NCBI GenBank assembly: GCA_019055375.1 | Contig: JAHQIW010000264.1 | Location: 62,001 to 126,000, forward strand | Reading direction: 5' to 3' | Source of the DNA: Parelaphostrongylus tenuis | Taxonomy: Eukaryota > Nematoda > Chromadorea > Rhabditida > Metastrongylidae | DNA length: 64,000 bases | Shown here: positions 7,202 through 61,381 of the stretch, in pieces | Numbering within the stretch: position 1 is the first letter of the stretch | How the letters are laid out: the number at the start of each line of letters is the position of its first letter | Notes under the pieces: model-generated | Database searches by the model: none | The model's input: only the letters and a program-made list of their open reading frames with translations | Told to the model about the DNA's origin: nothing | Program-made: the position numbers and the translations under genes

Positions 7202-9627
7202 ATTACCTCTATACTTTCTATCATTTGTGGCACATCTTTGCTACTCTATGTTCGCACGGTCTCTTATGAAGGTGTGTGATTCAGGATTTTAATTTATTCT
7301 CTCTTCATAATCGGCTCATTCTCGTTCCCATTAGAAACAGAGGGCAGCGGTGAAGAGGACAAATGTCCTCCATGTCCAACATCTGAGGCTACGCTTACGG
7401 CCACTGCTCCAGGTAATGCATGTTTGAAATCGAAAATCGCTGTGATTGGATAATAACCTGCACCCAGTTATCTATGTGGTATTGTACTTTGAAATCTCCT
7501 TTGATTCAGCTTCCAATAATTACTGTTGTGAATGAAGATGTCAGAATTGTCTGCCTGAATTTTACATTGTGATACAAAGCCTTCTGATCTCATCGAACTA
7601 TCAAATTTTTCTAATTTCAAAAACTCTCTGTCAGAATCCCTGCATTAATGAAATTGCAGCTACAGCCGCTATCGCTACCACGACAGCTCCCGAACCCTGC
7701 ATATGTGAAGATACAACTACAGCCGCTATCGCTACCACGACAGCTCCTGAACCCTGCATATGTGAAGATACAACTACAGCGGCTATCGCTACCACGACAG
7801 CTCCCGAACCCTGCATATGTGAAGATACAACTACAGCCGCTATCGCTACCACGACAGCTCCTGAACCCTGCATATGTGAAGATACAACTACAGCGGCTAT
7901 CGCTACCACGACAGCTCCCAAGCCCTGCATATGTGAAGATACAACTACAACCGCTATAGCTACCACGACAGCTCCCGAACCCTGCATATGTGAAGATACA
8001 ACTACAACGGCTATCGCTACTACGACAGCTCCCAAACCCTGCATATGTGAAGATACAACTACAACCGCTATCGCTACCACGACAGCTCCCGAACCCTGCA
8101 TATGTGAAGATACAACTACAACGGCTATCGCTACCACGACAACTCCCGAACCCTGCATATGTGAAGATACAACTACAGCCGCTATCGCCACCACGACACC
8201 TCCCAAAAGCAGTAAGCAGTAGTTACACTATTTATTTTTTTCTCTTATCTTAAATAGTTCTGATCTGACTTATTACAAGTAGTAAGTAGCTCAAGCAGAA
8301 GTGAACTCATCTGTCAATCCCAATGCTGTTTTAACTTAATTCCTTGTCCTGAACTCGTCATGCGAGATGTCTTCGTATTTGCCTGTAGGTTCGTGTGCAG
8401 GCACCTGCACCTTCTGATTGTTGGCAAAAAAAATTTGACCTTCGTCAAAGTTTTGTGGAACAGATCACGGAGTAATGGTGCAGCTCTTTAAATACTTAGT
8501 TATCGATTTGTTCTCCTAGCTCGTTGTTGCTGCTGTTGTAAAGAGGAGATCACCACTACCACTACCACAACTACTACAGAGGCTCCTAGTGGGTTTACAT
8601 AGCCTTTTCAATCCATTGAAATTTATCAGACATTGTATGGAATGTTAAGGAAGACCATGCTGCTGCTGCTGCTGTTGTGGATGTGGAAGCAAGTGCAGCA
8701 AACCGAGTGAAGTTCCTGAAGTTTCTGAAGTTTCTGAAGTTCCTGAAGTTCCTGAAGTTCCTAAAGTTCCTGAAGTAAGCTTACACTGTTTGTGATCGAA
8801 CAAACTCAGTAAAGGCGAACTAGTAGCCTTTGATGCTAAAAGTAGATTGATATGACTGATTCCAGGCAATATGTCCAGATGGATGGACTCAATTCCAAGA
8901 GTCTTGTTATTTCGTGGAGGACAGGAAAATGAGCATGATGGACGCACAGAGATCTTGTGGTGAGAAGGGAGGTGGCCTATTTGTCGCCAATACCTTAGAG
9001 GAATTCGTAAGTGAATCAGTTCAAAGCAATGAACTAAAGGTAGCGGAATAGAAGCGTTTTAGAATAGAGTAATGAAGGATACGCCAAAGTACTTCTGGAG
9101 CTGGATAGGGTTAGGACAGAGCGACATGAATTCCAGTCCTAAATGGGGCTTCGTTGAAGAAGTTGATCCGTGAGTTAGAAGACATTGAAAATGTTGAAAT
9201 TTTACAAAGCCGTGAGCAGAACCAATCTCTTGAAGACAGACGTTATTGATTAGACTTTTCAGTTTCACGCTCAAGTGCCTCAAAACAACAGATATGGGGC
9301 GGCCATGATGGATGCGATCCATCACTACTGTGAGATTTCTGCCAATTTTTTAACAGCATGTTCAGTATCTACTCATATAAATTGAGTGGACAGAGTAACA
9401 TAACAAAATGGATTTTAGAGTAATGACTAGATCTTCACTACCCTAGCCTTTATTGCAGAAAATGGCTGATCAATCCATTTTCTTCTATACTGAATGGATG
9501 GTCACCATTGGCTACTTGCGTCGGACACTACAATGGCGGCACCTTCGACTATCTTTACTTTTATCCTTGCTCATATTTGTTCAATTCTGTATGTGAGAAG
9601 AACTTGACAGTAACCCAATCGACCTGA
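7202..9627 (+). CDS. C-type lectin domain protein with Cys/Thr repeat linker (8 exons, 5' end incomplete)
   Basis: Exons read from splice sites with matching phases: 7202-7271 (tentative), 7335-7412, 7660-8211, 8520-8588, 8650-8774, 8866-9006, 9063-9169 and 9459-9627 (stop TGA). The first exon is hydrophobic (SILSIICGTSLLLYV), which fits a signal anchor. An acidic Cys-rich stretch follows, then nine full and one partial copy of a 19-residue Thr/Pro/Cys repeat, runs of five and seven consecutive cysteines, and an EVP repeat. Last comes a single CTLD: CPDGWTQFQESCY, the WSWIGL core, KWLINPFSSILNGWSP and the closing FYPCSYLFNSVCEKN. The canonical EPN/QPD and WND calcium-sugar residues are not visible, so Ca-dependent sugar binding is doubtful. 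Such proteins are usually secreted or surface-exposed. The start codon was not found; the acceptors at 7202 and 8650 are weak. The CTLD assignment is firm. Confidence 0.85.
7640..8211 (+). repeat. 57-bp in-frame coding minisatellite
   Basis: A tandem array with a 57-bp period inside one lectin exon. Nine complete units each encode CICED followed by a Thr/Ala/Ile run and APEP or APKP, and a diverged partial unit precedes them. Third-position changes alternate between neighbouring units (gcc/gcg, gca/aca), which suggests unequal exchange or conversion in blocks. Length is a multiple of three throughout, so copy-number change keeps the reading frame. The repeat extends slightly upstream of the acceptor chosen at 7660. 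A rival acceptor at 7634 breaks phase with the previous exon. Confidence 0.95.
8704..8774 (+). repeat. 9-bp coding repeat (Glu-Val-Pro/Ser)
   Basis: About eight units of gaagttcct or gaagtttct at the end of the exon just before the CTLD, encoding a Glu-Val-Pro/Ser spacer. It follows the seven-cysteine run. Confidence 0.85.
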
Positions 9628-11150: not shown

Positions 11151-11646
11151 TATATAAAAAAGAACTATTGCACCAGCAACATTAGAGATATGCCGAGGCA
11201 GCATTGGCACCAGAAACCCATTGTACGTCGATGGCAATGCAATATTATTGACTCTTCCGAAGTACGAGTCTGTAATCGAAAAAACTATTTGAAAACATCT
11301 AATCCTTTCGGGAGCGTTGATCCACATCCTCTACTTCCCCAACTAGCAACTCTGCACGGTCTGCCCCTTCCACTGCATCTCAGGTCCAGCTGCCACTGTT
11401 AAACGTACCACGCTGGAGGTTAGTGATGCAGAGGCAATGGGTCTACGGTCTCGAAAGGGTTGATTTTGACATAAGTCTAAAAAGAAATCGAATCCCAACC
11501 TCTTCGGAAGAAAGGGTTGCTTACATGAACGTGTCTTGAACGAATTGCTTGAGCGCTTCTGAAATCAATGACGTCCATAAACATGACATATTTACTAAGC
11601 AACACGGACATATACTCTTCGATGTAGAGTAATGAGCAGAAGTTTC

Positions 11647-11720
11647 GCGTCAGGCGGGACTCGAACCCACATCTCACCCTATCCGAAAGCGCGTGCTAAA
11701 ACCCGTTGCACTACTGACGC
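11647..11720 (-). repeat. tRNA-like cloverleaf at the end of a dispersed repeat
   Basis: The minus strand folds into exactly 74 nt: a 7-bp acceptor (GCGTCAG/CTGACGC, all paired), D stem GTGC/GCAC, an anticodon arm with a TCGGATA loop and wobble pairs, and T arm GTGGG-TTCGAGT-CCCGC. It lacks the invariant U33 and a CCA end, and belongs to a dispersed family (B'), so it is a tRNA-derived repeat head rather than a proven tRNA gene. Confidence 0.6.
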
Positions 11721-34705: not shown

Positions 34706-37643
34706 ATGTCGTTCATTTTAGAGGCTACAAACAATTACGTCATATTCGTAAGTATTCTATGAATAGTAAACAAGTTTTGACTAGCTTTTTTTAAAATTTC
34801 GCAGGACTGCTGATATCGATTTACTGTACTGATTGCAGCACTTCTTGCATACAATTCGTTTCCTCTCATGCACCCTCCATGAAAATTGTCAATTGTAATG
34901 AAAGATAACTTACCATTGTGACAATTACCATAAGTTCGTGGGCTTCCTTAGCTCAGTTGGTAGCGCGTCAGTCTCATAATCTGAAGGTCGTGAATTCCTC
35001 ACCGGGAGCAGTTGTTTTGGACTTCGTCATACTTTCAGTCAAAGTCTCCTTCCGTAGCAACTAATGTACTTTTTTGCACCATCTGTGATCATAATCTGAT
35101 GTGGCGGCCGTAGCACTTCTCGTATTTGATTCGTTTCCTCACATTCGTCTTGACAAAGGTCCTCGAGCATTCGTGTTGTTTCGACTGCTGATTGAAGACT
35201 TCACCTTCTTAGTGGCTGTCGTAGGACGCTATTCAAGACGATTCTAACTGAAATTTGATAATCTTAACATGATAGCAGGTTTTGGGCCTTATATAAGATC
35301 TGGTTCGTCACTTATACAGTACTAGACAGCTCCTGTTTCGCTCTTACAGGCTCATTAGTAGCTCGGTGCGTTTCGGTACTTTTTGAGCCTTTTATAGATC
35401 TGGCACGGCGCTTATACAGCACTAGACAGCTGCTGTTTCGTCCTCGCACGCTTTTGAGCGAGGTCTATATAAAAAGTCGAGAGTAAAGGTAGGATTCACT
35501 TCTACCAGTCATAAGCGCTCGACTGTGGTCACACAATGTCGGGAGATTTTGTCACTCGACATGCGGCGATCTAGTGACTCGGCGTCGATTCCCTTATTAG
35601 TAGGGGTATATCGCCCTGCAAGGAATCGAGTGAACCGAAAGGCAGCATGCTACTGATGAACTTGCAAAGGCGATACATTAGCTGTCTAGTAGTGTACAAG
35701 TGCCGTACCGCATCTCATTAAAGGCTCAAAACATGTTACTTCGTCATCAGATTATTAGTTTGCTACCCACATAAGCAGTCGGGAGTCAAGGTGTGATTCA
35801 TTTTCTTTGTAATTCTGAAGAAGATCGGGCTAAGATGATTAGTTCTAAGAGGAAGGGTAATAGGAGAGGATCAAACCAGTATTTTGCTTTTAATACACTG
35901 TGTCAATAACCACTACGCGACTCCGCACTTATTGATCACATTGCGCTTAGTCATGGGGGTAACTTGTTCTTTGAATATACCCAATATGTGGAGTGCTGTA
36001 GCAAAAACGTTTGCGTCAGCCGGGATTCGAACCCAGATCTCACTCTTTCCGGGAGCGTATGCTAACCGTTGCACTACCGACGCTCGTTTTGCACAGCACT
36101 CTTATTTACGCTATAACGCGATGTCTGCCAACGGCCAACCATCGACTTTCTGGCGGGGCAGCCGCTATCGTCATTGAACCCCTTGTGTTCTTTGAATACT
36201 TTTCATATATTACCCAATATGAGGTGGTATAATTCCTTTAATAAACGCTACTTAGGAGTGCACGTGGCGCAGTGAGTAGAGGTGTCCTGCGTCGTATACA
36301 AGGTATGCTTTGATCGCACTTATGGCTCACCAGGCCACCTATCTCTCCGGAGTCGGTAAACTGGCATCAGCTTTGTCTGGGAGGAAAAGCAGCATTGACT
36401 CGGTAGAGCGGTAGGCTACCGCGACTCATTGTAAAGGCCCGATATGCACCTCAAACGAAGTTGAAAATCAAAAACGTATGTAAAAACGTATCCATGGCAC
36501 ATTCTTCAGGGAATTGGTCAACGCATAGAGCGTTATCCTTCATCCTTTGAGAGCTGCTCTATTGAAAATTCAAGGCGGAACACAATATCACTATCTCCCA
36601 TGTATGTTCCTTAGGTGCTGCATTTACCAGTAATGGTGATTCTGGTTGTCCTTTGTCTACATAGGAGAAACTCACCTACATCAAATGAAAAAGCGGTGAG
36701 AATCTCTTTGTAATATTATTTGCACTGTGTATCTAATCACATACGTTTTAATTAACTATTTGAGATCACGAAATGAGAAGCAATTTTCATTTTTATTATT
36801 ACGAAAAAAGGAGCTACTTTACAGATTTTGTTGACAAAGGATGCACATCGCGGTATCCCGCGTTCCAATACGCGAAACTGTGTTTCACCAAAGTATGATA
36901 TTAGTTAAGATTTTTACACCTGAGTGCCACTATAACATGAGCATGAAGTAGAAATCTAATTATATTTATTCATGCGACCCGTCATCATATTTCACTGTGG
37001 AGACCCCAGCTCTTCTTGCATACAACTCGTTTCTTCGCACCACTAGCAAACGTCTTTGAACATTTCATATATGCGTTGTAGTGCTGGTTCAGTGTATTCG
37101 CTCCTTTTTCTCTAATAAATATCTTGAATGGTGACTGAGTCGATTCTCTCCAAGTCTTAGGATAGCTTGCCAAGCGTTGCTGCATAGATCTGTGGGAGTA
37201 AGTTGGGCCCAGATACGTTTCTAATGCCAAATTCGCGTTCTAGAGGGGTGAGAGGCTTGATAAATTTGGGAGTAGATTGAACAAGTACCGTGCTAATGAT
37301 GAATGGCATCACTGCATCATTACCACTGCGCTACTTGTTTCTAGATTCTAAAAGGATATAGACCACTTATCAATATGTCTATTCTTCAGTTCTATTGATG
37401 AACGGATGAAAAAATAACAGATGTGATAAAAATTTGTTCTCATTTCTTCAGGCCTCCTGACGGCATTCCCGTTGCACCTCCTCCTGAGGATCCTCGTGAT
37501 GATACGCTGTGGTAACTATTTCTGTATTTGAGATGTAATAGCACTTCAAATCTTCTATCTGCTCATATATCATTTTCAGTGGCGTCAAGTCCTTGGATAT
37601 CGAAATCAGTGGGAAAGGTGTTAAAGGCCGCCCAAAAAAATGA
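34706..37643 (+). CDS. Small single-pass membrane protein, 104 aa, 5 exons (intact member of a local family)
   Basis: Exons: 34706-34747, 36615-36695, 36825-36892, 37452-37511 and 37580-37643. Phases agree (0,0,2,2) and the sum is 315 nt including the stop. The protein begins MSFILEATNNYVIF, has one hydrophobic segment at about residues 12-30 (VLHLPVMVILVVLC), then a short basic HRR stretch, a motif LTKDAHRGIPRSNTR, a proline-rich PVAPPPEDP, and a Lys-rich tail ending GRPKK. This suggests a membrane protein with a cytosolic basic/proline-rich tail; I do not recognise the family. A poly(A) signal lies at 37697-37702. Two diverged local copies keep the same exon pattern, which is the best evidence that this is a gene. 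Intron 1 holds a tRNA-Met relic and family C and SINE sequences. Confidence 0.7.
34942..35010 (+). pseudogene. tRNA-Met (CAT) pseudogene
   Basis: Begins gcttccttagctcagttggt, has an intact-looking D arm and a tcagtctcataatctga anticodon arm with anticodon CAT. The T loop has lost about four bases (gtgaattcctcac), and acceptor pair 7-66 is mismatched. At about 69 nt it is short. It lies in intron 1 of the 104-aa membrane protein gene. Confidence 0.65.
35270..35760. mobile_element. Family C fold-back element
   Basis: Ends carry tatacagcactagacagct-type and inverted agctgtctagtagtgtacaag motifs. Related copies are at about 43910-44250 and 62380-62920. The core resembles family B (aag..acgtgtctagcac), so B and C may be one superfamily. 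No ORF. Confidence 0.6.
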
Positions 37644-37696
37644 ACATGATGTTGTTTACTTAAGAATTCAAAAGTCACACAAGCAATGTACTTCCA

Positions 37697-37702
37697 AATA
37701 AA
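37697..37702 (+). promoter_or_regulatory. Poly(A) signal of the 104-aa membrane protein gene
   Basis: AATAAA 53 nt after the stop codon. The equivalent AATAAA is kept in both decayed copies, at 43622-43627 and 51931-51936. Confidence 0.6.
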
Positions 37703-38794
37703 GTTTATTGTTTCGTTGATTCAGTATTTGGAAGAAGTCGTTTGGTAGGGTGCTCTCCATACATCGAATGACTTCCATTTCCACCATAGAACTATCTTCA
37801 ATAAGAACAATCGACATTATTCACAATAATCTTCTTCTGGGTGTTGAGAGAGTTGTTTGATAGGGTACCCGTACGGATGCAGATAGCTGGATTCCCCGAG
37901 TAGGACAGCAAATTTGTAGAAAATACTTCCCTAGATTATATAAGGTCTCCGATCTAAAATTAGATCCTAATAGAGGGAATAGGAAACGGTGGGAAGAGTA
38001 CAGGGCAAATAAATAAGGTGTATAAGCACGTGAAACTAATAGTTGATAAACAAACATTTCCTCATCTTTGATATTACAAATTACGGTGCCTTTCTGTTAG
38101 ACGGTGACAAATAAGTATTCGATAACTTTGCGGTACAAGATTTTTCATAGGAGTGTTTGTAATCATTCGAAAGTTAAAACTCTGGCTAGAGACATGCGCA
38201 GGCGGTTTTCTAATGACCCTTTTACGATGCCGTCAAACCCAAAATAAAATCATGTTTCACACCCGTCGCGCGCCTTCTTTTTATACGCGTATAATTCGCT
38301 GGAAGCACGAAAAGGATATGAGCGTGTAGAGAAGGGACAACGGAATGAGAACGGAGACTCTCTTGTAGAATTTCTGTCGTGCGATATCTCTTCTGGAAAC
38401 TCATTTTTTGAGAATAGAGAAAACTGATGATGGACATGGGTATCTGTCAACGGCACGACTCATGCGGAGAACGATCATGTGATTACAAAAAGAAAATGGT
38501 GTTTTCTTACCTCCTCATTCGTACCTGGCTTCTGTACGGGATCTAATCACTGCTTCTCACGTGCGAAGGTTCGATTCAGTTATGATATAGAAGAGAAATG
38601 TTGTTGTTTCGATTGCCTGTCTTGACCGACCTAATGTTCGTAGTGACCTGAAACTTGGGTAATTTGGCCTTTATCACTTGGGTTATTAGACCTCTATCTA
38701 GATAACATTTTCTAGATAACATTAGTCTTCTCAAGGCTAGTGGCCACAATCTACATGTACTTGTCGCAAGACATATGATATCACACCTTCAGAG

Positions 38795-39370
38795 AGAAAA
38801 AATCCCAGACTAATGGGGGCTTCGCGCACAGTGATCCTACTCAAGAAGGTTGACAAAAGAGATTTTGTCACTACCCCTCAATAAGCCTATCAAGTGTATA
38901 CGAAATTTTTGCAAAAATCATCCTTTTGCGCCTATCGAAGACCTCGGATGAGGCAAGTTGGACCACGTCCAAACCGTATCACGGTTCATGAGAGACTGTA
39001 GGAAATACCTCATGCCCCTTGTTCAAGCCCTTATGACTATGAGAAAGCGTTTGACAGCGTTGAGGCACGGCTTTTCCATCAACTTCTCACCATGTAGTAC
39101 TAAACAATACAACGCCAGTAATGCATGTCAATGATGAGCATATAACTATTAATGAGAATCTTGTACACATCTAATATATGGTTCCAGAGTTCTTCAGGTG
39201 GAATGGCGATAGGATTTCAGCACCTTCTCAATTCTTCTTCTCTCTTTTCTCGTTCTTCTCAACGCCTCCTTATCGTGAGCGGGCGGACTTTTTCAGCTGG
39301 AATGAGGGCCGCAGTAATATAGTCCATTTTTCCCACTATGGTTTAACTGCTTATCTGAGTTTAACTCCTT
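38795..39370 (+). mobile_element. Non-LTR reverse transcriptase fragment, a second lineage
   Basis: Frame-broken RT reading VILLKKVDKRDF, SLSSVYEIFAKIILLRLS and YEKAFDSVEA (about 39028). The YEKAFDSVE form differs from the LKKAFDSVE of the 46 kb RTE, so this is another lineage. Its 3' part (39175-39365) matches 32100-32310 and 33130-33290, probably further fragments of the same element. Confidence 0.6.
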
Positions 39371-40771
39371 GAGTACCAAGTTAATTGTGCACGCGGCTGG
39401 CGACGCGACTGAGAGAGCGCAGCTCGTTTCAATGACATAGTTGTGTTTTTCTTATGAAATTTAGAATTTCATCACCACTAAGAATGGGTCAATTGCCGGT
39501 AAACAGGTAAGTTTGAGAGAAGAGTCTCCAGCAGAGCAGATTTTGATCAAAACGGCATAGGACAGTTACAGGACTATGAAATGCTCGCAAAAATCATAGT
39601 GCCCATTGCCATACGATGCCACTTCATCGAAAACTTTTAAACAATTTTAATTATCAGTGGATTTCAGGCGTTGAAATCTTCATATAGTTGTACTATAGGC
39701 TTTGTTCTTTTGCTTCATGGGTATACTTTTCTATATCCCCACTTATACTTTGCTATGAATATTATTGACTTTCTCATTTTCATTTTCAGAGAATTTTTCA
39801 AAGAGATCAAATAAAACTATGTCGAGGCTTGTTCCGGCCACATACTAAAATATCATTCTGAATAAGTTTCTTCTCAAACTCGTCCATCGTAGAAAAAGGC
39901 GCTTTAGATCTTCATTTATACAACATAGTCTAAAGAAAACGTAAAGAAAGCGTTCAAAATGTATTGCGTTCCCGACTATGTAGCTTTAGCATCAAAAAGT
40001 AAAGAGCTATAAGACAAATTAGGACAAATGGGCGACGTTATTGCTAAAAATACGTCAGTGTAAGTCCCTCCAACACTAATCTATGTTGTCTTGGCGACAG
40101 AGTTTGATTACGGCCAAAATTTAACTAGATACTACCAAAATTGAAGGTCGGTTGCTGATGCTTTCTATACCATTTGTAGAAGAAAGAGTAATAGGTTAAA
40201 AGGTCTCCGGTAGCGCCCTATGTTAGCACTTGCCCCCGGAAGGATGAGACGTGGGTTGAACTCCTGCCGAGATTGATAGCCTTACATATGACTCAGCAAT
40301 CTTGAATTATAGTTATAACAATATAACATTGCTACTGAAGCGAAATAATGAAAACAGTCTATGCTTCACCGTGTTTCGTTCTTCAAGCACACCAATAGAT
40401 TGTTGAGCTCAGAAATCTCAAATGATAGCTGGTTTGTAGTCAAAATAATTTGCACTTGATACGACCATAAAACATCAGTCGGTAAAGCCTTATTTTTTAC
40501 TAGTTATCCTACAAGAGCGGTTTTGTATGTCGCTCACGTTAGATGCTACATACAACTGCGTTATATTCGTAAGTATTTTAACTAATATTAGATTTGACGC
40601 ATTTTCACCAAATTTCTACACGACTCGTCATCACAGAATGTTGTCCATATCCCACCACATCTCGCATTCTATCCATTTCCTCACATGCACCCTCCAAGAA
40701 GGTCTTCGATTGTAGTGAAACGAAAAGTTACCAATTTAGAAATGATCGGGAATTCGTTTGCACTCCCGTGG

Positions 40772-40836
40772 CGTAGTTCATAGCTCGTCACTTTCGCGAT
40801 ATGAAGGTTGAATTCTAGTCCCACGCGGGTAGTTGT
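40772..40836 (+). pseudogene. Second, more decayed copy of the tRNA-Met relic
   Basis: tggcgtagttcatagctcgt and gatatgaaggttgaattcta align with the 34942 relic, and the flanks also align. It was carried in the duplicated intron. The anticodon arm is no longer recognisable. Confidence 0.5.
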
Positions 40837-42184
40837 TGCGAAACTTGGAGTGTTTTTCATTCAAAATTTCCTTCCGTAGTATTGAATGTGTTTTTCTCCA
40901 CCATCACTCATCAAAGCTTGATGTGAGGATCCTAGACTTTTTGCACATTCGATTCTTTTCCTCATTTTGATCTTCACACATAGATCTTCGACATTAACTG
41001 TTTTTTCCACTGCTGACTGAGGATTCTGCCGCCTTTATGATGTTGTCGAACGCTGCTTAGGAGAACTCTCCTTACAGTGTTGGAAATAGCCGAGCTCAAG
41101 ACTCAGGTGCTTTTAGGAAGAGGTTGAACCAAGCCTTGCTTCTGATACGCTGTGTCACTGACCATTGCGGTACACCACCGTGCACCGCATAAGTTTATTC
41201 AGTTCGAGTATTTCGCTTTTTCAAATATATTTATTGTGTTTTATTCAATGGGATTTGGTAGCGTTTCTTCCAATGAGCGCTGATTTGTAGTCACTATTTT
41301 ACATGCATTTTATTTAGGTACTACATCTGTCTGTAGTGTTTGTTCTCGTTGTTCTTTGTCGACGATATTATAACCAATCCACGTCAGATGAACAAGCGGT
41401 TGATAATCTATTCATAATACCAATTCCTATGTATATTCATTTACGTGCATCTTACTAAATCAGTTTCAAATCACAAATGATTTTTGATAACATTATGAGA
41501 AAAAGAAAAAGCTATGTTAAAGATTGTCTTACAAAGGACGCAATCCACGGCATTCCACGTTCCAATACTCGTCATCTCGTTTCATCAAAGTAAGGCATTA
41601 GTAGAATTGCTACAATTAAATGTAGATGTAACGAGAGGTTCAGACGATAGTATTATTAACCAATTATTCATACAACTCGTCATCACAGTTCCTCTTGCGC
41701 ATCCCAGCACCTCTTGCAATTGATGTATTTCCTGTACTCGTCCTCCGCAAAGGTCCTTGAACATTTTACCGCTGCTTCAACTGCTGCTTGAAGATTTCGT
41801 CTTGTTTATGAATGCTGCGAGATGCTGGCTGAAACGATTCGTCGTTTAGTAGCGAAAGTAGACGACCTAAGGTGTTTTAAGGCATTCAGTGATTGGTTAC
41901 GAAAGTGTGTTGGGAGAGGATTAGACTAGGGCATTACTTAAGGCCACGCTTTCTAATATGGTATATTCATCCTCTGGGCTATCTCGCTTCTTGAGATATA
42001 TACACATTTGCGCATATTCTTCTGTAAAGCAGTTTCAAGGTGTTAATAATAGTATTTGTCGAATATCAGTAATGCAGTACAGTAATGCACTGTAATAATG
42101 CAGCACAGACAATGCAATAATTGTACACTGGCTAACATTTCGGTGAGGCTAGCCTTCTTCAAAGCCCGGAAAGGTCGGTTCTTT

Positions 42185-42965
42185 CTGATTAGGAGGGAAA
42201 ATGAAAACCGATGCTCATTTGCTGGAGAGGGAATTTTTATAGGAGTCAAAATCTGAGTCAAAAGCGGCGACTTGAGGCCACAGCCTCACGTCGCCGGTTT
42301 TCGAAAAAGTCCTTTTTAGACATTTGTACTAGGCGAGATTTCTTGGCTCAGACACGCAATTTCTCGCCGGACAGAGCTCTTTCCTTGGACTATTAGTAAT
42401 CACTGGATAGCATAATCGAATTTGATTCCAACGTTGTGCTTATATCCTGCAAAGACCGTTTCTCCAAACGCAGGAGGTAATAATGTACGCAACTGTAGTA
42501 AGTCGATGCCCAAGTGGGAGAAACGGCGTCCCGCGCGAATCACGTGGGCGCTGGCTGCAGTGAGCGGTCCTATGAACACGTAGAGAAGTATTGCGTCAGC
42601 AGTCACATGACCGCCACACCCACCGCGACGTGAACTGACTCTAGATCGTCCATTCTCACACATCTAATTCAACTTATTTTACCTGCTGCTTTGCAGAAAC
42701 AGTCTCTCCAGGATATAAGCACAACATTGGCATCAGGAGGCACTACGCTGTCTTATGATTGCTGATAGTTCAAAGAAAGAGCTCCGTACGACAAGAAATT
42801 TTCGCTGGATTTGTGTGGAGATCACTGCGTTATAAGAGGTGTTTTGAAAAATTGGCGACGCGGGGCTGTAGCCTCAAGTTTCAGTTTTGAATGGCTACTA
42901 ATACTCCTATAAAAAATTCTTCTCCAGCGAATGAGGTCGGTTTTTCACTTGTCCCCTCCTAGTAA
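42185..42965. mobile_element. Family G fold-back element
   Basis: The left arm (42207-42470) and right arm (42690-42951) are inverted copies, for example the gctggag..ttttataggag ends. The centre holds gcggtcctatgaacacgtag. Inserted in intron 3 of the second membrane-protein copy. Confidence 0.75.
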
Positions 42966-45239
42966 GAAAGAACCGAAAAGTCAAATTGATCAGCAATCTG
43001 CTTAGTCAGAACCTCCATTACCTCGTAGAAAGCGCAAGAAACAATTTTGGATCTTATAGTAGAAAGCTTCACTTCAGAACACTCACCGTTTAGGTCTTTT
43101 AGGTCTTTCAATTATTCATTTCAAAACCCGCCGCTTAGAGTCAGTGCGTGAGTGAGACTGTGCCTGCCTTAGACCAGGAATGTCATCCTGAGGCATTATG
43201 CGAGGGTGTTGATTGTCCGAAAAATTGAAAACATCCACACGTGATACTTTTCAAACCTTTTCGATATATAGTAAAGGCCCAAAGATGAACCGTAGAAAGG
43301 AGTGCCTCGTGATAACTCGTGACTTTGAGTAATTACAAACTACTTGTCAACATCTTATCGACGAACAATTGAGAAAAACCATTTCTTCTGCCCACCGGCA
43401 AGCACTCCCATTGCACCTCCTCCTAAGGATCCTTACGATGATACGCTAAAGTAAGTTGTTTATATTTCAAACGTGCTAGCACATTAAATTTTTCTATACA
43501 CTTCATGTATCGTTTTCAGAGGTGTTAAGTCGTTGGAACTAGAAACCAGCGGAAAAGCTGCTGAAAGACATTAAAATGCTGAGCATTTAAATTCAAAATT
43601 CAGACAAGCAATGTACCTCCAAATAAAATATATTGTATCATTGAAACAGTGTATGAATGAAACAGCACGTTCACTGAAAGCGATCTATCCATATCAGTGC
43701 GCTAACCTTCGAGTTGTATAGCTCTCTTCATAACTATTGGATATAAAAAAGAGACTCTTCATATTTTGATAATTTTGATTTCTATCTTTCACTATCTTGA
43801 ATGAAAGCTGTAACCATTATTTTTGACGACATTTTTTTCATATCTGATAGCATATCTTGAGTCCATCATAAGGTTTGCTATGGCACTTATGTCATCAGAT
43901 ATCAAGATATGTTATCAGATCATATATTGTTCTGAGCGAGGTCCATAGAAACAGTCCAATGTGAAATTATGATTCGTTTTATCAACATGAACGATCAGCT
44001 ACTGTTCTCTGCATTGTCGTGGGATTATATCATCTGACATGCGGGAATTTGTTAATTCGGCGTCGGTTCCTTATACAAGAGGAGTATACCACCTGCAATG
44101 GTTTGCTGAAACGAAAGGTACTGTACTACTGATGAGGCTGTAATGACAAAAGACGTGTCTAGCACTGTATAAGTGCCATAACAGGCCACATGAAAGGTTA
44201 AAGATATGTTATCAGATTGCACTTATCATTGTTTAAGCGAGCTACAAGCAGCTGAGTACAAAGACATTTTCTTGGCTACTACGAAGATTGTTTGTAGAAA
44301 TCTGAACGGATGCAAGTATCTAGATCACCAAACAGAACAGCTGTAGTAGATACTTCCATAGAACATGAAGGGCCTGTAATGAACAAGTTGGTTCTAATAG
44401 AAGGATTGTAATAGCAGAATATATAAAGTTTAAAAAGAGAGATAGGTACACGTTAAAAATGTCAGATTGGGTAGAAACTTTTGCAAACATTTTTAACATT
44501 GTTTTGCTAATCTTCGTTTACACGGTCTTTAATCAATGATGAAGTGCAGCACAGAATCTTCTGAAGTTATACGTGTGTGAACAATAAGTATAAGTTGATT
44601 TCTACCTAAATGTAGTCAAAATTGGCAACAGCTGGTCGGTAGTTGTATTGCTCGTCGGTGCGCAGATGGGGCCAAACCCCATTGCTTCGGCAACTTCGGC
44701 AGTCAACAAGCGAATTCCTTAGGGAACGCCACAACCAGAGCTGTCTTAGAGAATGAAAGGAGACATGCTTAACATGCTCAACCAGTATTGTGTGACGTGC
44801 AAGAAGAATAAGATAAACCATCAACTGCTAGGAGTGCTGGTATCAGCACAAGGAAAAAAAAAACTTTGAAGATATAATTGTGTGTCTAGAAAGTATGGCC
44901 GGAAATATCTTCTCATGCAAGCGCTAGCGCAATACCTATATTTCCCCATTCCCTACAGGTCATAACTGAGTTCGTAACATTCGGTTTGCATCACTCTCAC
45001 TCACAAAAAGTGGATACCTCAATTTGCAGGCAAAGCTCACATCACTTCAACATCCAAAAACAAAAGGCTTTAACCACAGTCCTCGTTAAAGAGCACTTGT
45101 CTTCTAAATTATTTTTCCTTTACAAAAGCCAATAAACGTTCGCGGTGCTGGAGTATTTATGTGTGCGCCATTTATTGGTGTCTTTTTGAAGGACTCCCTT
45201 GAGGAGACTAACGGAAACGCTAAAAAATTATTTTTTGCA

Positions 45240-45790
45240 AAGTACTCGCCGCAGACATCAGCATCAAGCATCGAGATGTAGTGAAGAGGACAAAGAACTC
45301 GACTCCGGCCCACTTTTCGACTCAGTATCTGCCCTAGTATGCAGCAGAAACCTGTCGCTAGTAGAGATGAAAGATCACTGGGTTTCGAACCGCAGTCGAA
45401 GGTCGACTAGGAGTATCCCGTATCTCGCAAATGAGAGAAAGGATCCGAAGTCCCGACCTACGTCAACGATCGAAAATCAGAGACGCCGTTCTACACGCCA
45501 GAATGTCGAAAATAAGGTGGGCCGGACACGTGATGCGCTTCAACGGCAACCGATGGACGAGAGCCGTTACCGACTGGATTCCTCGGGACGTCAAGCGCTG
45601 TAAAGGAAGATCACTGACCCGTTGGTCCGATTTCTTCACGAAAGCGATAGAAGAAAGATATGATGCTCAACGAATCCCTAGAGCGAGAAGGACCCACTGG
45701 GCTACTCTTGCACGCGATACGGGAAAAATGGAAGAGTTGCTGGTACCCGCTTGAGTCACTCGACAATCAACGGGAGGACAGAATTACAGA
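45240..45790 (+). mobile_element. RTE 3' fragment
   Basis: The C-terminal end of the same RTE polyprotein: MRERIRSPDLRQRSKIRDA, KIRWAGHVMRFNGNRWTRAV, DWIPRDV and THWATLARD, ending at the shared gagtcactcgac tract. Its nearness to the 46-48.8 kb copy could reflect separate insertions or a rearrangement. Confidence 0.75.
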
Positions 45791-46019
45791 CAGACAGAAC
45801 TGCCGCAAAATACGACTTCTCTGTGGCAATGTGCAGATACAACATCTAGTTCTCGACATGCCGTTCTATAGGGCGCTTAAAGTATGGCAAAAAAGTTTTG
45901 GTAAAGCGAATAGCGTGCAAGGAAGTGAATCATATATGATTATGGACGTGCTGAACAATTTTAAATTGATATAATGTTCCAAATGAGTATTATGCATTAT
46001 TCTCTTACTAACTCCTAAA

Positions 46020-48840
46020 CCCACGAACCTCCCTCTTTGATGGATCCCGCCCGGTAAGTCACTAGGGCACGTGGCGCGTCCCCAGGTGGTGGATAGGGGA
46101 AAAAAACGCGAGCCAGAAGTGACCGTGTGCTTGCCAGAAACGCAGGAGGATTCAGGGGATGAGCTCCGTGCTTCTGCAGCGCTCGACTTGACAAACTCTA
46201 TTTCTACGAGTCAAGTCGGCCAAAATCCTGCAATCAAGCGGCTGGGAAGTGCATGAGAGGCGGTTAAGAGTCTCCTCCAACGAATGAACTCCTTCCGCTC
46301 CTCCGAGAGAGATTGGCAAGCTCTCGTGAGTACCCAGCCCCCACGTCTAGAGCCTGGCAAGCTATACGTTGGGTATCAAAATGCCAAAAACAGTAGCAAA
46401 TATGGGCCTCATTCCCCTCACCCCGAAAGAGCCTCTGGTACGGCAGCATCAGGTAGGACGAGTACGGAGAGGGTGATAAAAATGGTGATCGTCGGAGATT
46501 TTAGTGTAAAATGTGGACCTAGAAGAGCGTCTGAAGAGCGTCACATTGGGACCACGGACTAGAATGAAATGAACAAGGTGAGAGGCTATCTGAGTTTATC
46601 ATGACGACCCGAACCATCCACGGTAACTCACAATTCCAAAAGCCTTACTCTCAGCGACGGGCATGGAAGTCTCCCAATAGAGACTAGCATAACGAAATAG
46701 ACTACATCTCAGTAAATCGAAAGGTTTGCCTGACCGATGTCGCTGTTGTTCCTGAGCTCTACAGGGATCAGACCATCGCCTCCTTCGCGCAGCGCTCCGT
46801 TTTTTGGCGGAGAGGAGAGAAAGCCGCTAAATCAAACAACGAAGTTCCAGAACTACCATAAACTGGGATGTATTCAAATCATTAGTCGGCTCTTGGAAAG
46901 TTACCATTGCCGACAGCATCGATAAAGAATACGATCTGCTCGTTGAATATCTTAACGTTAGTGCTATGAAAGCCGAGAGTCCCAATGTCACGAAGAGACG
47001 CTTGTCTCCGCAGACACTCGAGCTGATACGTCAACGTGGATTCGCACGAGCTACAGTCAACCGAAACCTTGCCTCCGAACTTGCGAAACGCTGCAGAGAA
47101 GCAGTAAGTAAAGACCCAAAGAGAAACGAACAACAGTCATGGCAAAGGCTGCAGAAGCTGGGAAGAGCATTCGCAAAAGCCCAGTGAGGCTTCGCCAATT
47201 ATAAGACCAAGATGATTGCACTCCGATGCCCTGACGAGACACTTACAGCTTACAGAAAGGCTATGGAGAAAATCATCCACCAATACTACTCGGATCTCTT
47301 CGCTAGCCATGTCCTCCTACCGTCCTATAAATTGAAAGAGGATGAATATGTCGTTCCACCGGTCCTCCCTTCCGAAATCCGACATGCTATGTCGTCGGAG
47401 AAGAACAACACCCGGTCCAGACAGGATTAGACCAGAACACCTGAAAAACCTACCGCAAATTCTCACCAACTCCCTGGCTCGGCTCTTCACTCGCTACCTG
47501 TCAGAAGGCAAGGTCCCATTCAACGGAAAACCAGCAAGATCTCATTGTTGTTCAAAAAGGGAGACCTTCACGACATAGGCAATCATCGCCCAATCTGTTT
47601 GCTGTCCGTTGTCTATAAACTCTTTACTCAGGTCATCCTAAACAGGATTGACAGAACAGTGGACGCAGGACAGCCATGCCAACAAGCAGGGTTCGAAAAG
47701 GATTTACTACCATAGGCCACATCCACACGATTACAAGACTCACTAAAGTTTCATGAGATGCAAACAATCACTCCGCCGCTCTTTCGTCAATCTGAAGAAA
47801 GCCTTTGATTCAGTGGAAACAGAAGCGGTTATAGAGGCTCTGGATAACCAGGGCGTCCCTACTCGGTACATAATGATCCTTCGTGAGCTTCATAAAGATT
47901 CACGACCAAAATATCTCCATTCTACAACAATATCACCATTGACGTAAGAAGAGGGGTTCGACAAGGCGATACAATTTCGCCAAAACTATTCACTGCCACC
48001 TACAAAACATCATGCGAACATTAGAATGGACGATATGGGAGTGAAAATCAACGGTTGACATTTAAACCATCTTCGCTTTGCTGACATATCGTCCTCATAA
48101 CACCAAACATCAGACAAGCCCAACGAATGTTGATCGATTTCGATAACGCCAGTGGAAAGATTGGTCTTCAACTAATTCTAACGAAAACGATGTTCATGAG
48201 GGAACGGATGTATTTTGAATGCCCCATTCACGTTCAGCGGAACGACAATCTCCGAATGCTCCAGTTACATCTATCTTGGTCGTAAAACAACATGATGGAC
48301 GACCTACCTCCAGAGTTGAGCAGGAGGAAACGAGCGGCTTGTAGAACGTTAAGAGCATCGAAGATGTAGTGAAGAAGACAAAGAACATCCGACTCCGTGC
48401 CCACCTTTTCGACTCGAGAATTATCCCTGCCTCTAACGTATGCAGCAGAAACCTGGTCTCTACCTAAGCAGGATGAAAGATCAATTGGCGTTATTGAACG
48501 CGCAGCCGAAAGGTCGATGCTAGGAGTATCCCGTATCTCGCAAATGAGAGAAAGGATCTGAAGTTCCAGCCTACGTCAACGATAACCGATGGACGAGAGC
48601 CGTTACCGACTGGATTTCTCGGGACATCAAGCGTTCTACAGGAAGACCGTCTACTCGTTGGTCCAATTTCTTCACGAAAGCTTTAGAAGAAAGATATGAT
48701 GCTCAGCGAGTCTCAGAGAGAGGAGGACCCACTGGGCTACTCTTGCACGGGATAGGGAAAAATGGAAAAGTTGCTGGTACGCGCTCGAGTCACTCGACGA
48801 TCAACGGGACGACAGGTGACAGGTGTACTCCAAACAATTC
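46020..48840 (+). mobile_element. RTE-type non-LTR retrotransposon, inactive
   Basis: The pieces follow the order of an RTE polyprotein. The endonuclease remnant (VIVGDF near 46485) has an N-terminal deletion. An inter-domain region runs 46965-47190. The reverse transcriptase follows, with NHRPICLLSVVYKLF (about 47580), NLKKAFDSVE (about 47790), RRGVRQGDTISPKLF (about 47950) and a ruined FADD box (RFADI at about 48075). The C-terminal region includes TYAAETWS and HWATLARD. Many stops and frameshifts are present, and a segment near 48570 is deleted. Confidence 0.85.
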
Positions 48841-48849
48841 TCTCAAGAA

Positions 48850-51800
48850 ATTGAATACCTAACCCAACAGAAATCAATGGATTTTTTTATGAGTCACTAG
48901 GCATTGTGTAAAATTGTTTCAGTTTCTGCTTGAAGGATAATTTTCTGATGTGATAAAAGTTATCAAAATTTTTGAGCTTTCAAATACGTGCTGCAACTTT
49001 CTTGAGTCGTTGCCCTTAACAACTAGTGATTAGATTGTCGGGATAGTGGTTATTCTCTGTTCCTAATGGAAGTGTTTATCCTTGCAAGCATGAGAGATGA
49101 TTCTATCAGTGTACCCACTGTGTACATCACACTTCGACATCCAGTACGCCTTACTCCAATGTTACGATATTTTGACGAACAGCAGACTGATTTGCAGTTA
49201 TTCAACGGTGTTTGAAAGAACAGACCAGACAAATCGGAAACAATGGTTGAACATCATAGAATACTTTGAAACGCCAGCTAGTTTGCAACCACTTATATGG
49301 CACTACATCTACAGCGCTGGAGTGCATAGTCTGCTTTTACGATAAAGAAGGCATTGCCGCGAATTTAGTTCACCTAGCTCTCTTGTACGGCTTGTCGGCG
49401 GCAAGTACATCGACGGAAAGGGTAGGCAACTTTGTGTCCGTAAAAAAGAAAAATATTCACAATCTCAAAGCTAAAGCAACTATGCGCAGTAGAGTCAAGC
49501 AGGATACAGAGACATAACGGGGAGGAACGCGACATGGCATCAACCTCAAACAAGGACATTAACCCTTAAAGCGTGAAATTTTGAAAGAACTCTGGAAGAA
49601 CCTCGAAATTCCAAGATGTGGCACATAATATACGATTGTTATTTTGATGTGAGATGCCCACTGGCAGTCCATGTGATTTCTGCGCATTTGGTCCACTGGA
49701 CACCTCAATGGTGGATTCATAAAGGGAGACGAATAAGTTGAAAAGTTGACTGATTTCAATGTGACTAGAATCTAGGTTTGTTGATTTATTTTGCTGAAGT
49801 AATGAAAATGCTCGGCTGATTGGGTTGTGGGCACTTTCGTGGTTCAGAAAGCGAACTGCCAAAAAGTCATCTATCAATACAAATTGCAGCATAACATCCC
49901 GCTTTGGGTTTACAAGAAAAAGCTGCAACATAGTGAAAAAACGACATCGGCTTATACATGTAATAATCAAACGTGAGTACCTTGAACCGTTATTAGTACT
50001 AATGATAGAGTAAGTTTTGACTCCAGCTGCGACGCAAGAACGGGACTATCCTCATTGATGCACTAAAAGTTGCTTAAGTCTGACTTTCCACAGCATCCTG
50101 AGATAGTCGAACTACACTATTTTCACGCGCAACCATATGTAATGGTATACCTTTATAGTGAAGTATATAACCTTGCAACTCGATTCCTTCCACGCGAACT
50201 GGGATTCTTATGACGGCTTGTAATCCTGTCAGTCCATCACCCCCTCAACACCTCATACTGCAATCATATTACAAGCAATAAGGTAATGGTTAATAATTCT
50301 TTCAAACCTCCTTCCTTTAAGCTTTGGCATTACAAATCAATAATAGTTTTTCTATATTTGAGCTAATCCTTCGAGTTTGATGAAAAGGCAATTTCATTTG
50401 GTTGCTCGTTTCGACTTCTGTTGCGCTTATTGGTTTCCTTTTAGTTCTCAGTGGCAGTGATGCACGTATTGCGCTGCCTATAAAGAATGTAACTTCAGTT
50501 GCATTGTGACGATGAATCATAATTAGCTTATCAGAAAAAGAAGTTCGCGACGCAGACGTGACACGCCATTCAGAAATTTTCCTTTTCAGAAAACTGATGC
50601 TATGAATATGGTTTACAAAACCAGCACTACTGTTCCGAGTAGATTAAAATTAAATGACAATTGAAATCGGTATTGTACCGTCATTTGGTCTGTTGTTCCA
50701 AGAAAAACCGGCACATTTGGATTGTAATTCAATGTAGTAACGAATATTACTTCTTTTCGGTTATGCGAGACAAATAAAGAAATGACCGATTCCGCTGGAC
50801 AAAATTTCCCATTGCATTCTCAGTAGTCATCCGAAAGCCTATATCTCTGGCTCTTGCGCTACATAACCTTTTTCTAGAAAAAGCTCTTTGCAACGCTGCA
50901 GAGAGAAAGAAAACATTTGTGTTACACATACGCATGATTTCTCGAAAGGTTAAAAATTTTCCTCAAAACGAAAATGACCATTCGATAGTGCAGGTTCCAA
51001 TAATTCCTACTCCGTGCTTATTTTTAGAGAGACCGTCGCACCGCACTGCAGCATGGAAAATAAGATCGACTTCTACATACCCGATGCATTTGTTTGTCAG
51101 CTAGTGCGTGAGCTGGGTGTCAATAAAGTAACAGAGGTGCTCTTATAATAAATTAAATTCTCATTCGTCATACTTCTCTCAAATTCTCATAAGCTTCCAA
51201 TAGTAAAAGATCGCTTCGCAAGCAACTTTCACCTGATAAATTTTTGTGCGCTCCTTAGATCTTTTTTTTTACGTAATTCATCTTCACAAGTATACAAATC
51301 TCTGCGCTTCCGCCATTGGACTCGTCATCTCGGATCCATCATGGAAGGTCTCTGGACATAAGAGTGATTGAGTCAATTTTCTCTTGAGTCTTCGGATAGT
51401 TGTAATCGAGCGTTGTCGAGCAGATTTGTGGAGTGAGGTGAGCCCAGAGAAGTCTCTCGCAGCAAATTTCCGTTTGAGATGAATGGAGGGCGTGGCGATC
51501 CCGCAGGACATTGAACAAGCTCCATTCTTGTCATGAAGAACATCACTGCATCGTCACCACCTCGCTACTCGTTCTCTACACTTTGTGTAGAACACAAATC
51601 ACTTGCCAACTTATCTATGTTGCAGTCTCATTGATGAACAGTTGAGAAAAATCGATGTGATGATAAATCTTTTCATTGACCTAAGCCACTGGTTAGCACT
51701 CCAGTTGCATCGCCTCCTAAAGATCCTCTCGACGATACGCTGAGGTAACTTGTTTTATTATTTGAAGCGAGTTAACGCGTCAAATTCTTTACACACTTCA

Positions 51801-53130
51801 TATGTCGTTTTCAGTGATGTCACGTCGTTAAATACGGAGACCAGTTAAAAAACTGTTAAAGGTCAGCCAAAAAGTTAAAATGATTGTAAGCAATTAGGTA
51901 ATCGAATTGCAGACGAGCAGTGTACTTCCAATAAAGCTAATTGTATCGTTAGAATAGTGTCTGAAGGAAGCCATATGTTTGTCCAAAATAAATGTTCGAT
52001 ATAAGCATTCACTGAATTGTCCAATTTTGTTTACAGCAAATCGTACATAGATAGATGTTCTTCATAAATCAGAAAATTTTAATTTCCATTTTCTAACTAT
52101 CTCAACGAAATCGGTTGACATTCTCCAATCTGTCATTTACTTGTTTGCTAGGGAAATTGTTTGCTGAAGTAGCTGATGAATGCAAACAACAGGATTCAAT
52201 CTAGTAGAGCAGCAAATCTGAAGGAAATACTTCGAGAAAATATGATGGGCCTCTGATCTACAGTTAAATTCATAATAGAAGGATTGCAATGCGCCGGAAA
52301 AATAAATCACATAGAAAATGCGAAATATGTGCACGATAAGATTTTTGGGTTGATCTGGAAGCCTTAAAACACTTTAACTTCGATTTGTTCTTGTTTATTT
52401 GTCTAGTTATATTGAAAGGTTTGTTTATTAGCAGATAAAGCGTATCATGGATTTCTACAAACTTTTGTACCTTGAAAGGACAGCCAGTTTGCACCGATTC
52501 CCACTTATAATTAGCCAAAAATATATGCGTACCTTAAACTCGTTGTTTGTAACAAAGGCGAGTAAACTATGCATCGACAGCGGAATATTTAGTCTGGCCG
52601 AAAATAGAAGAAAAACGGTCTTTCGATTAATCAAAAAGGACGCAGTTTCACTCTCACTAGTGATTTGAACCGTATTATTATCTCTTTAGCCCAGTTTCCC
52701 GCTTTGTAAGCTTCAGCCCATTCTCTTATTGTGAGCACCGTATGGATGAGCTGATTGAACATCAAATCGGAAAGAAATCAATGCCTTTTCGTCAAATGAA
52801 GTGTGTGTAGGATTTTTTCATTAAGATTGTAGGACGCGAATTGCGTACAGTAAAGTCACCGAAACATTGGCCATTGGAAATGTCCGTTGAGAAGCATGTG
52901 CTAGCTCGACAAGAAGACCTCTTTGAAAGCTCAAAGGCACACTTCTTGAAAAACTCAGAGGATTACATCAGAATAAACTGAGGTTTTGAGAGAGGTGCTC
53001 AATCACTTGATTGGAGGTATATTATATGCTTGCTTAACAGCCGTATGCCACAGACAATTAACCACCATAGACCGCAGAATCAAGTAACATTTTTCGCTTC
53101 GTCTCGAGTGGCAATTTTCTGCAACGTTTG
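48850..53130. other. Mostly unannotated region
   Basis: Contains a partial family G element (50740-51110), the third membrane-gene copy (51680-51848) and a shared short motif at 49240-49300 and, in the same orientation, 52440-52510. Overlapping open frames on both strands at 49560-49970 could not be assigned. Confidence 0.35.
51680..51848 (+). pseudogene. Third copy of the membrane protein gene, only the last two exons found
   Basis: Segments 51685-51744 (STPVASPPKDPLDDTL) and 51815-51848 match the last two exons of the 104-aa gene, with a conserved donor GTAACT and acceptor TTTTCAG between them. The tail is shortened by an early TAA, the exon-4 acceptor region has changed, and an AATAAA follows at 51931. 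I could not find the first three exons upstream. Confidence 0.55.
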
Positions 53131-54215: not shown

Positions 54216-54989
54216 AAGCCGTTTTTTTTATCTTTTCCAGACCGACATCGAGAAAAATCAAGTAGACAAAATGTCCGATTTTGTTCATGCCCTACTTAGA
54301 GTGAAATCTCACGGAAAATCTCTATTTTTTGGAACAGTTCCATTGTGATGTCAGTTACACTAATAAAGAACGGCCTTATTCTTTCATGTAATTATTATTA
54401 CTAATGCAAAAGATTGCAAATAGCAGAAGTCTCCAATGTAAGCGATGAAAGTGGTTGGGGTGGCAAAAAGTCACACCAGCCGTTGTACATCGAGATGGGA
54501 ATAACAGGAATTCAGAAGACTTCAGTACTCTGCTCAATAACAGAGAGTAGTGTGTAAAAACATTTGCGTCATCTGGGATACGAACCCATATTTCACCCTT
54601 TCCGGGGGCGCGTGCTGAACCGTTGCACTACCGGCGCGCGTTTTGACACCACTCTTTCTACGCTACAACGCCTTATCTGTCAACAGCCAATCGTCAGCGG
54701 TCTGGCGTGGGTAGTCACTATCGACATTGAACCCATTTAAGCTAAATATAATGGTTATCAATAATTAGTCAAAATTCTTTCTGTTTGACCGCGTTTACTG
54801 GTGATAAGATGTTATATTATACCCAGTGATAAAGAGTGATGTGCAAAGCATTTGCAACGCGGTTCAGCACGCGCCCTCGGATAGGGTGAAATGTGTGTTC
54901 GAATCCCAGCTGGCGCAAAGTTTTTGCACCTCTTCATCATTGGGTATATTATAACATCCTTACCACTTCTAAAGGCGGTCAGATAAAAA

Positions 54990-59510: not shown

Positions 59511-59576
59511 CTTAACTGCGCCTACCCAAATCACTCAGCTGGTACAGAAATTCATTGCCATTTCATTGCCACTAAC

Positions 59577-61381
59577 CTTGCGTTTAATTCTCACGCAGAT
59601 TATCACGGCGCAATCGAGTAGAAAAGTGAGGAATAGAACAGCTAAATTGATGTAGAAGCCGATGACAATGACAATTATATGACCGCATGTTGTGTCGGAG
59701 AAAGTCCATTCCCAATCTATCGTATCAAAGAGCATGAAACAGGTGTTGGCTGAAAGAAAACTGACATGCGATGTTTAGATGAACTTCATGAAAATCTATA
59801 CAGATATTGCGACATATTACTTAACCATTTGTGGAATTTGTAAAATTTATAATGTGTGTTTTGAAAGAGAGAACATGTCTCAAACAATTTCTTGGAGGCT
59901 TTCTTTAATTACATATGGTCTTTTTTGAGCCAAAGTCCTGTCAAGCACTCTTTTACTTTGAGGTCGACAGACTTGATTATAATGATAGAAAGTCCTGATG
60001 TTCGATCGCCTTCGAAAATATATGGCAAGCGAGCATCCGTGCACGATTACTAGAGCTAGATTGACAATGTGTTTCCAATTCATAACAACAGAGGCGGCCA
60101 ATTATTCTCTTATGCTCGCTGTAGAAGCAAATTTGCAGACGGAGTTATGAATATGTTATTCACAGCACTTGCTATTGATCTTTATGTTTACAAGGCTAGT
60201 TGATTCCAGAATAATGAAACTGACTCCAAAAGTACGGCACCATTTGAAAGAAACCCAGAATCCAGCAAAGTAGAACAAGGAATGACGTTTTTCTTCACAG
60301 TAATTAAGTTAACAACTTGTAGAGGAAGCACGATAGTGATGAATTCTGTTGAAAGCAATAGCGAGGATGACAGTAGACGCATACATTCGAGAACATAAGG
60401 AGTACCATACTGAGTAGTTTAGCTGTTAATTCGGTTGATAATTCGGTTTCACTGAAACTTCTAAGCCTTGTTACCACGAAGATTTCTGAATAACTATACT
60501 TTTCACTCATTCTCAATCATTAATCCTGATTTTCTACTCTTGTTTCACATATAATACTAAGCGCTATTGTTTGTAGTATTTTCAATTAAAATCTTGAACG
60601 ACGAAGGCCTTCCATAGTAATGGTTTCAGCCAAATGATGCTCATATTTCATAAATGTTTCGCACTGTTCTAAAGTGTTTTGTCACAAATTTTCAAAATGC
60701 CAGAGGAGAGTTTTTAAACTGATTTTTATTTCCTTTCAAAGTGACTTGAAAAGGAGTCATGTACAGTTGTTAGGTAAAATCGTACACACAGCTACGAAAG
60801 TTAACATCACAGTCAAAAGATACATGAAATTTTTCTAAATGGAATAAGTTTTATTTGGGCATTATTCGTAATGCAGCTGAACTTAAAATAGAATTTAGAT
60901 ACTTCGCCTGAACATTGAACAAATTACGACTTTTTGAAAATAATAAATATGTATGTGAGAGGAAAGTAGTTATTATATCAGACGTATAATCCAATCAGTC
61001 TACGACTCAATAGCTTATCATTCCATCATTCTAAAGCTGCCTCTTCTAAGTTCAGTTATTTTGTGCAATAACGAAGCCATAATACCTTCAACTCTTCTGG
61101 AAAGTAACAGTATGTAATTACAGTTACTCTGTGGGAAATCCGGTAGTCTGACTTCTCAGCTCTCACATTTCGCAAGTAGTTTTCTCAAGATTCCGGAGTC
61201 GGAAGACTATAAAGACTTACAACAATGTAATTGGTGTGATCCAGAAGACGAAGATGCATAGAGCGCCCACATTGGCGATGCTGCGTGAGAGGCACAATAG
61301 CCCAAATGAATTCCACAAGGCTGGGTTGTATCGTACGGCTAGTATAGCAGCACCGTTTGAGACCAGACCAAACATCCCTAC
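59577..61381 (-). pseudogene. SRX-type serpentine chemoreceptor relic
   Basis: Three exon-like pieces on the minus strand. 61381-61221 reads VGMFGLVSNGAAILAV, then NSFGLLCLSRSIANVG and a third hydrophobic run (TM1-TM2). 60422 to about 60220 carries MYASTVILAIAFNR, then FITIVLPLQVV, but these two lie in different frames, and a further frame change is needed for the next hydrophobic run. 59749-59577 reads CFMLFDTIDWEWTFSDTTC and a long hydrophobic segment (TM5) with a GTTAGT donor. The NR-F-IVLP and W-W-F-C motifs are typical of nematode SRX receptors, which act in chemosensory neurons. No start exon or TM6-7 exon was found, and RTE debris (57515-59510) lies immediately downstream. Sequencing error could mimic the frameshifts. 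Confidence 0.6.

Follow-up and report, generated by a model that had tools for sequence, protein, structure and literature searches.

One open and two decayed copies of a small nematode gene in a tandem cluster of Parelaphostrongylus tenuis

Introduction

Two described systems come closest to the locus analysed here. One is the Pfam family PF06678 (DUF1179), which was described in Caenorhabditis and has no known function. The other is the class of small type III single-pass membrane proteins, which have a short N-terminus, a membrane span near the N-terminus and arginines following the span. The locus was found in a 64,000 nt stretch of the Parelaphostrongylus tenuis genome (assembly GCA_019055375.1, contig JAHQIW010000264.1, positions 62,001 to 126,000, forward strand), referred to below as the window, and contains three copies of a small gene.

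Compared to DUF1179, the 104-aa protein encoded by copy 1 is of near-equal length and aligns collinearly from the membrane span almost to its C-terminus, but the match (E 0.0094) scores 16.4 bits, which is below the curated cut-off of 25 bits, and it is lost without exon 5 or without the span. The features listed for the type III class are all present in the copy 1 protein, which differs in having no Pfam family above its cut-off. With moderate confidence we regard the locus as a tandem cluster shaped by birth and death within a small family of nematode protein-coding genes, probably distantly related to DUF1179, in which copy 1 encodes a single-pass membrane protein.

Gene structure and predicted protein

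The spliced frame of copy 1 consists of five exons with a joint length of 315 nt, encoding 104 aa and a stop codon, and all four introns are of the GT-AG type (Table 1). The five-exon gene with first exons of 42, 81 and about 68 nt described in the initial annotation was thereby recovered with an open frame.

Table 1 Positions of the features of the three gene copies in the window
Feature	Position	Strand	Remarks
Copy 1 exon 1	34706..34747	+	42 nt, ATG; donor gtaagt
Copy 1 exon 2	36615..36695	+	81 nt; carries most of the hydrophobic span
Copy 1 exon 3	36825..36892	+	68 nt; encodes LTKDAHRGIPRSNTR
Copy 1 exon 4	37452..37511	+	60 nt; PVAPPP
Copy 1 exon 5	37580..37643	+	64 nt including stop
Copy 1 poly(A) signal AATAAA	37697..37702	+	starts 54 bases past the final base of the stop codon
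Copy 2 exon 1 equivalent	40527..40568	+	42 nt, open
Copy 2 exon 2 equivalent	41318..41398	+	81 nt, open
Copy 2 exon 3 equivalent	41523..41589	+	1 base shorter than in copy 1 (frameshift); ends taken from the sequence
Copy 2 exon 4 equivalent	43391..43450	+	acceptor AG lost (reads TG), in both contigs
Copy 2 exon 5 equivalent	43520..43574	+	in the frame of copy 1, stop 3 codons earlier; read from the sequence
Copy 2 AATAAA	43622..43627	+	
Copy 3 exon 4 remnant	51686..51744	+	ends approximate
Copy 3 exon 5 remnant	51815..51880	+	in-frame stop; stop at the same codon in the other contig
Copy 3 AATAAA	51930..51935	+	

The best 19-residue hydropathy window of the 104-aa protein spans residues 11–29, with a mean of 2.86. 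The four top windows all overlap this segment, which leaves a single span of membrane-crossing length. The span is followed by HRR, the tail is proline-rich and its end is basic. Together with the short N-terminus and the presence of only one span, these features point to a type III membrane protein whose tail would be cytosolic. The topology of membrane proteins follows the positive-inside rule, and the HRR behind the span would place the C-terminus inside. Under this model, about 10 residues would be extracellular or lumenal, followed by the span (about residues 11–29) and by about 75 residues of tail in the cytosol. With little confidence, and from the anatomy of the protein, we would guess that the tail serves as a membrane-tethered docking peptide for a cytosolic partner, bound via its PxxP-type stretch.

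Several tRNA-like sequences were observed in the window. A weaker one is located within intron 1 of copy 1 (34942–35010, plus strand); by eye, a decayed counterpart was seen near position 40770 in copy 2, and the sequence may predate the duplication. Three others, at 36012–36083, 54565–54637 and 11646–11720 (all on the minus strand), sit within a more extended repeat. The surroundings of the first of them, in the version of the second contig described below, are 75–81% identical to the other two over about 200 bases. These three look like tRNA-derived dispersed elements, the first one being part of intron 1 of copy 1.

Probable relationship to DUF1179

Residues 12–99 of the protein aligned collinearly with positions 11–101 of the DUF1179 model, which comprises 107 positions. 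The searches were performed with HMMER, whose filters discard most matches above E 0.1, and with this limit DUF1179 was absent from all ten controls (six tail-shuffled, three with the first 32 residues shuffled and one reversed). Three of five truncated versions, namely those with all or most of exon 5, kept the match (E 0.019, 0.022 and 0.06), while it was absent from the two versions without exon 5. It was also absent from three pieces of copy 1 (64, 78 and 40 aa) and from the one copy 2 exon searched. The 78-aa piece holds exon 5 without the span, so that the match seems to need both.

Searching the genome with the DUF1179 model yielded one unrelated spot at E 1.9, and none of 14 control genomes gave a match. 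This search takes exons one at a time and did not recover copy 1, so that it says little. The spot it yielded, C4672:114609-114686, was discarded, as it holds a stop codon and a tblastn search with the 104-aa protein over the surrounding 10 kb gave nothing better than E 0.83. PF17255 (EbsA) was matched at E 0.096–0.29 by the native protein, by one piece and by three truncations, and also by two of the ten controls. This match rests on the hydrophobic N-terminus and was likewise rejected.

Among 5.8 billion proteins, three candidates shared words with the 104-aa protein, none of them at E 10 or better, and the PDB yielded no match at E values up to 10. In titles and abstract openings from literature searches on DUF1179, on hookworm assemblies and gene families and on small nematode membrane proteins, nothing naming this family was found. 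The protein had been called novel and of no recognised family; this is doubtful in view of the weak full-length match to DUF1179, of which the protein may be a distant relative, although the match stays below the cut-off of that family.

Duplication and decay of the copies

Copies 1 and 2 share direct repeats in exon 1 and upstream of it, in exon 4 and in the surroundings of the poly(A) signal, and copies 1 and 3 share them in part of intron 3 and in exon 4. Probes made from the copy 1 exons matched copy 2 in all five exons (E 2.6e-15 to 3.1e-8) and copy 3 in exons 4 and 5 (E 5e-10 and 2e-10). Judged by these locus-wide repeats, the E values of the exons and the excess of differences at third codon positions (see below), the similarity among the copies exceeds chance. 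In the genome, a DNA probe of exon 4 found three places, which are copy 1, its counterpart on the second contig and copy 2, although this is a weak test because the probe skips very common words and missed the remnant of copy 3.

Copy 2 has equivalents of all five exons. Its exon 3 is one base short when counted from the sole AG at its start, and its exon 4 has lost the acceptor AG, so that both defects previously assigned to this copy were seen. For copy 3, profiles of exons 1, 2 and 3, run over positions 43700–52400 and the matching stretch of the second contig, gave no significant match (best E values of 0.22, 0.56 and 0.47, respectively). The exon 3 profile aligned with about 50948–51003, on the same strand and in a plausible place, but its E value of 0.47 is no evidence of an exon. 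Copy 3 would thus be, as far as could be found with exon profiles, a two-exon remnant. The initial annotation had reported the five-exon gene three times; this applies to copies 1 and 2, while exons 4 and 5 were found for copy 3. The early stop reported for copy 3 is present and lies in exon 5. The AATAAA following exon 5 in all three copies agrees with the proposed conservation of the poly(A) site, and overall the picture of a local family encoding a single-pass membrane protein, one copy being intact and two decayed, is supported. The segment was duplicated at least twice, after which copy 2 and the truncated copy 3 would have lost their function.

Degenerate retroelement remains (repeats D1, D6, D8 and D9), with two related 3' ends, were observed between copies 2 and 3 (45200–48850). 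A match to reverse transcriptase in these remains (E 0.0058) is below the cut-off.

Coding selection

Copies 1 and 2 were compared by local alignments of the individual exons, since exons 2 and 3 fell out of register in a global alignment (identities of 0.469 and 0.433). At the three codon positions, 21 of 103, 14 of 101 and 38 of 102 bases differed, and the third position was the most different one in each of the five exons. Nei-Gojobori counts, from which codons touching indels were dropped, yielded a dS of 0.60 and a dN of 0.21 over 98 codons. The ratio of Ka to Ks between copies had been suggested as a check, and the resulting value of 0.36 (Fisher p = 1.4e-4) is in line with coding selection. 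Comparison of copy 1 with copy 2 of the other contig gave a dN/dS of 0.45 (p = 0.0036), while values of 0.39 (p = 0.047, one stop codon dropped) and 0.35 (p = 0.024) were obtained with copy 3 of the window and of the other contig, respectively. The third-position excess and the dN/dS of 0.36 indicate that the ancestral gene was protein-coding, and these sequence comparisons make clear that the family was under coding selection in the past. The flanks of the exons (up to 20 aligned bases on each side) differed between copies 1 and 2 at 30 of 163 positions, compared to 73 of 306 within the exons. As the flanks differ less than the exons, the exons are marked only by the codon-position pattern and not by conservation alone.

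Comparison with a second contig

A second contig of the same assembly (C146) was compared with the contig of the window using matches over 400 bits, with the comparison reaching window position 68000. Positions 14669–47907 of C146 are collinear with positions 67991–35782 in window numbering over 33 kb, apart from an inverted retroelement piece. The identity is mostly 76–87% and is 94% near copy 1. This contig probably represents the second haplotype, a less likely alternative being an old segmental duplicate. The divergence within 35782–67991 changes abruptly, from 13–24% over most of the 33 kb to under 6% near copy 1.

In both contigs, copy 2 lacks the acceptor and copy 3 has a stop at the same codon of exon 5, and read errors are therefore an unlikely cause. 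The frame loss near the start of exon 3 in copy 2 is probably common to both as well. On C146, AATAAA follows two of the three copies and is missing after copy 3. Copy 1 of C146 comprises exons 2–5, exon 1 lying beyond the end of the contig, and its coding exons lack a single base at two sites. These deletions may be genuine or errors of the assembly. The description of copy 1 as intact is therefore valid for the contig of the window and not for the collinear one.

Between the contigs, four synonymous and four non-synonymous changes were counted in 88 codons of copy 1 (dN/dS 0.33, p = 0.11). The identity is 97.0% in exons (263/271) and 96.7% in introns (1533/1586). Over 2675 nt of this region there are 22 indel events, 18 of them of one base, and two are located in coding exons, which make up 273 nt. 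In view of the similar identity of exons and introns, the p value of 0.11 and the indels in exons, copy 1 shows no clear current constraint. For the decayed copies, dN/dS values between the contigs, based on small numbers, with indel-touching codons and one stop codon dropped, were 0.49 for copy 2 (p = 0.046), although the acceptor is lost in both contigs, and 0.32 for copy 3 (p = 0.035), although both carry the stop. Gene conversion or a late loss is a possible cause of this lower dN.

Interpretation of the cluster

A non-coding origin of the repeats, as parts of a mobile element or as a conserved non-coding segment, is highly improbable. It would fit the tRNA-like repeats in intron 1 of copy 1, the remnants of a retroelement between copies 2 and 3 and the bases next to the exons, whose conservation between copies 1 and 2 equals or exceeds that of the exons themselves. 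It is at odds with the third-position excess in each of the five exons, with the four GT-AG introns and open spliced frame and, as a weak point, with the exon 4 probe occurring in only three places. A protein-coding family that is lineage-specific and unrelated to DUF1179 is a rather doubtful reading. The score below the Pfam cut-off, the separate pieces without a match and the lack of relatives at E 10 or better in 5.8 billion proteins and in the PDB speak for it, but the weight of the result from the 5.8 billion proteins would depend on how many nematode proteins they include. The near-equal length, the near-full-length collinear alignment to a nematode family and the absence of the match from all ten controls argue instead for kinship.

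We consider it unlikely that the whole cluster is dying, with copy 1 open in the haplotype of the window by chance and the gene already segregating a null. Two of the three copies are already broken, copy 1 of the second contig carries two one-base deletions in coding exons, indels are no rarer in coding exons than elsewhere (2 of 22 events; 273 of 2675 nt) and exon and intron identities between the contigs are alike, all of which this explanation would account for. On the other hand, copy 1 retains every splice site and its open frame, and past coding selection between copies 1 and 2 is clear. Consensus errors of long-read assemblies are often one-base indels, which 18 of the 22 events between the contigs would fit. 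The chances are likewise small that the cluster represents a small membrane protein family of one worm lineage, too diverged from every described family to be assigned to it, of which even the best copy segregates as intact and null alleles on strongly diverged haplotypes. We retain the birth-and-death cluster with probable distant kinship to DUF1179; the cluster is real, but an ordinary case of its type. If the kinship is true, DUF1179, a Caenorhabditis family with no known function, extends to another worm lineage. The cluster itself offers a compact and clearly bounded example of gene copies that decayed after duplication and can be compared between two haplotypes, and opens no large question alone.

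Other features of the window

An open frame on the minus strand (59538–59774) matched the chemoreceptor family 7TM_GPCR_Srx of Pfam above the cut-off (E 6.2e-8, 33 bits), which fits a nematode genome. A long open frame on the plus strand (7536–8219) is built from repeats about 20 residues in length (TTAPEPCICEDTTTAAIA-like) and is open on both strands.
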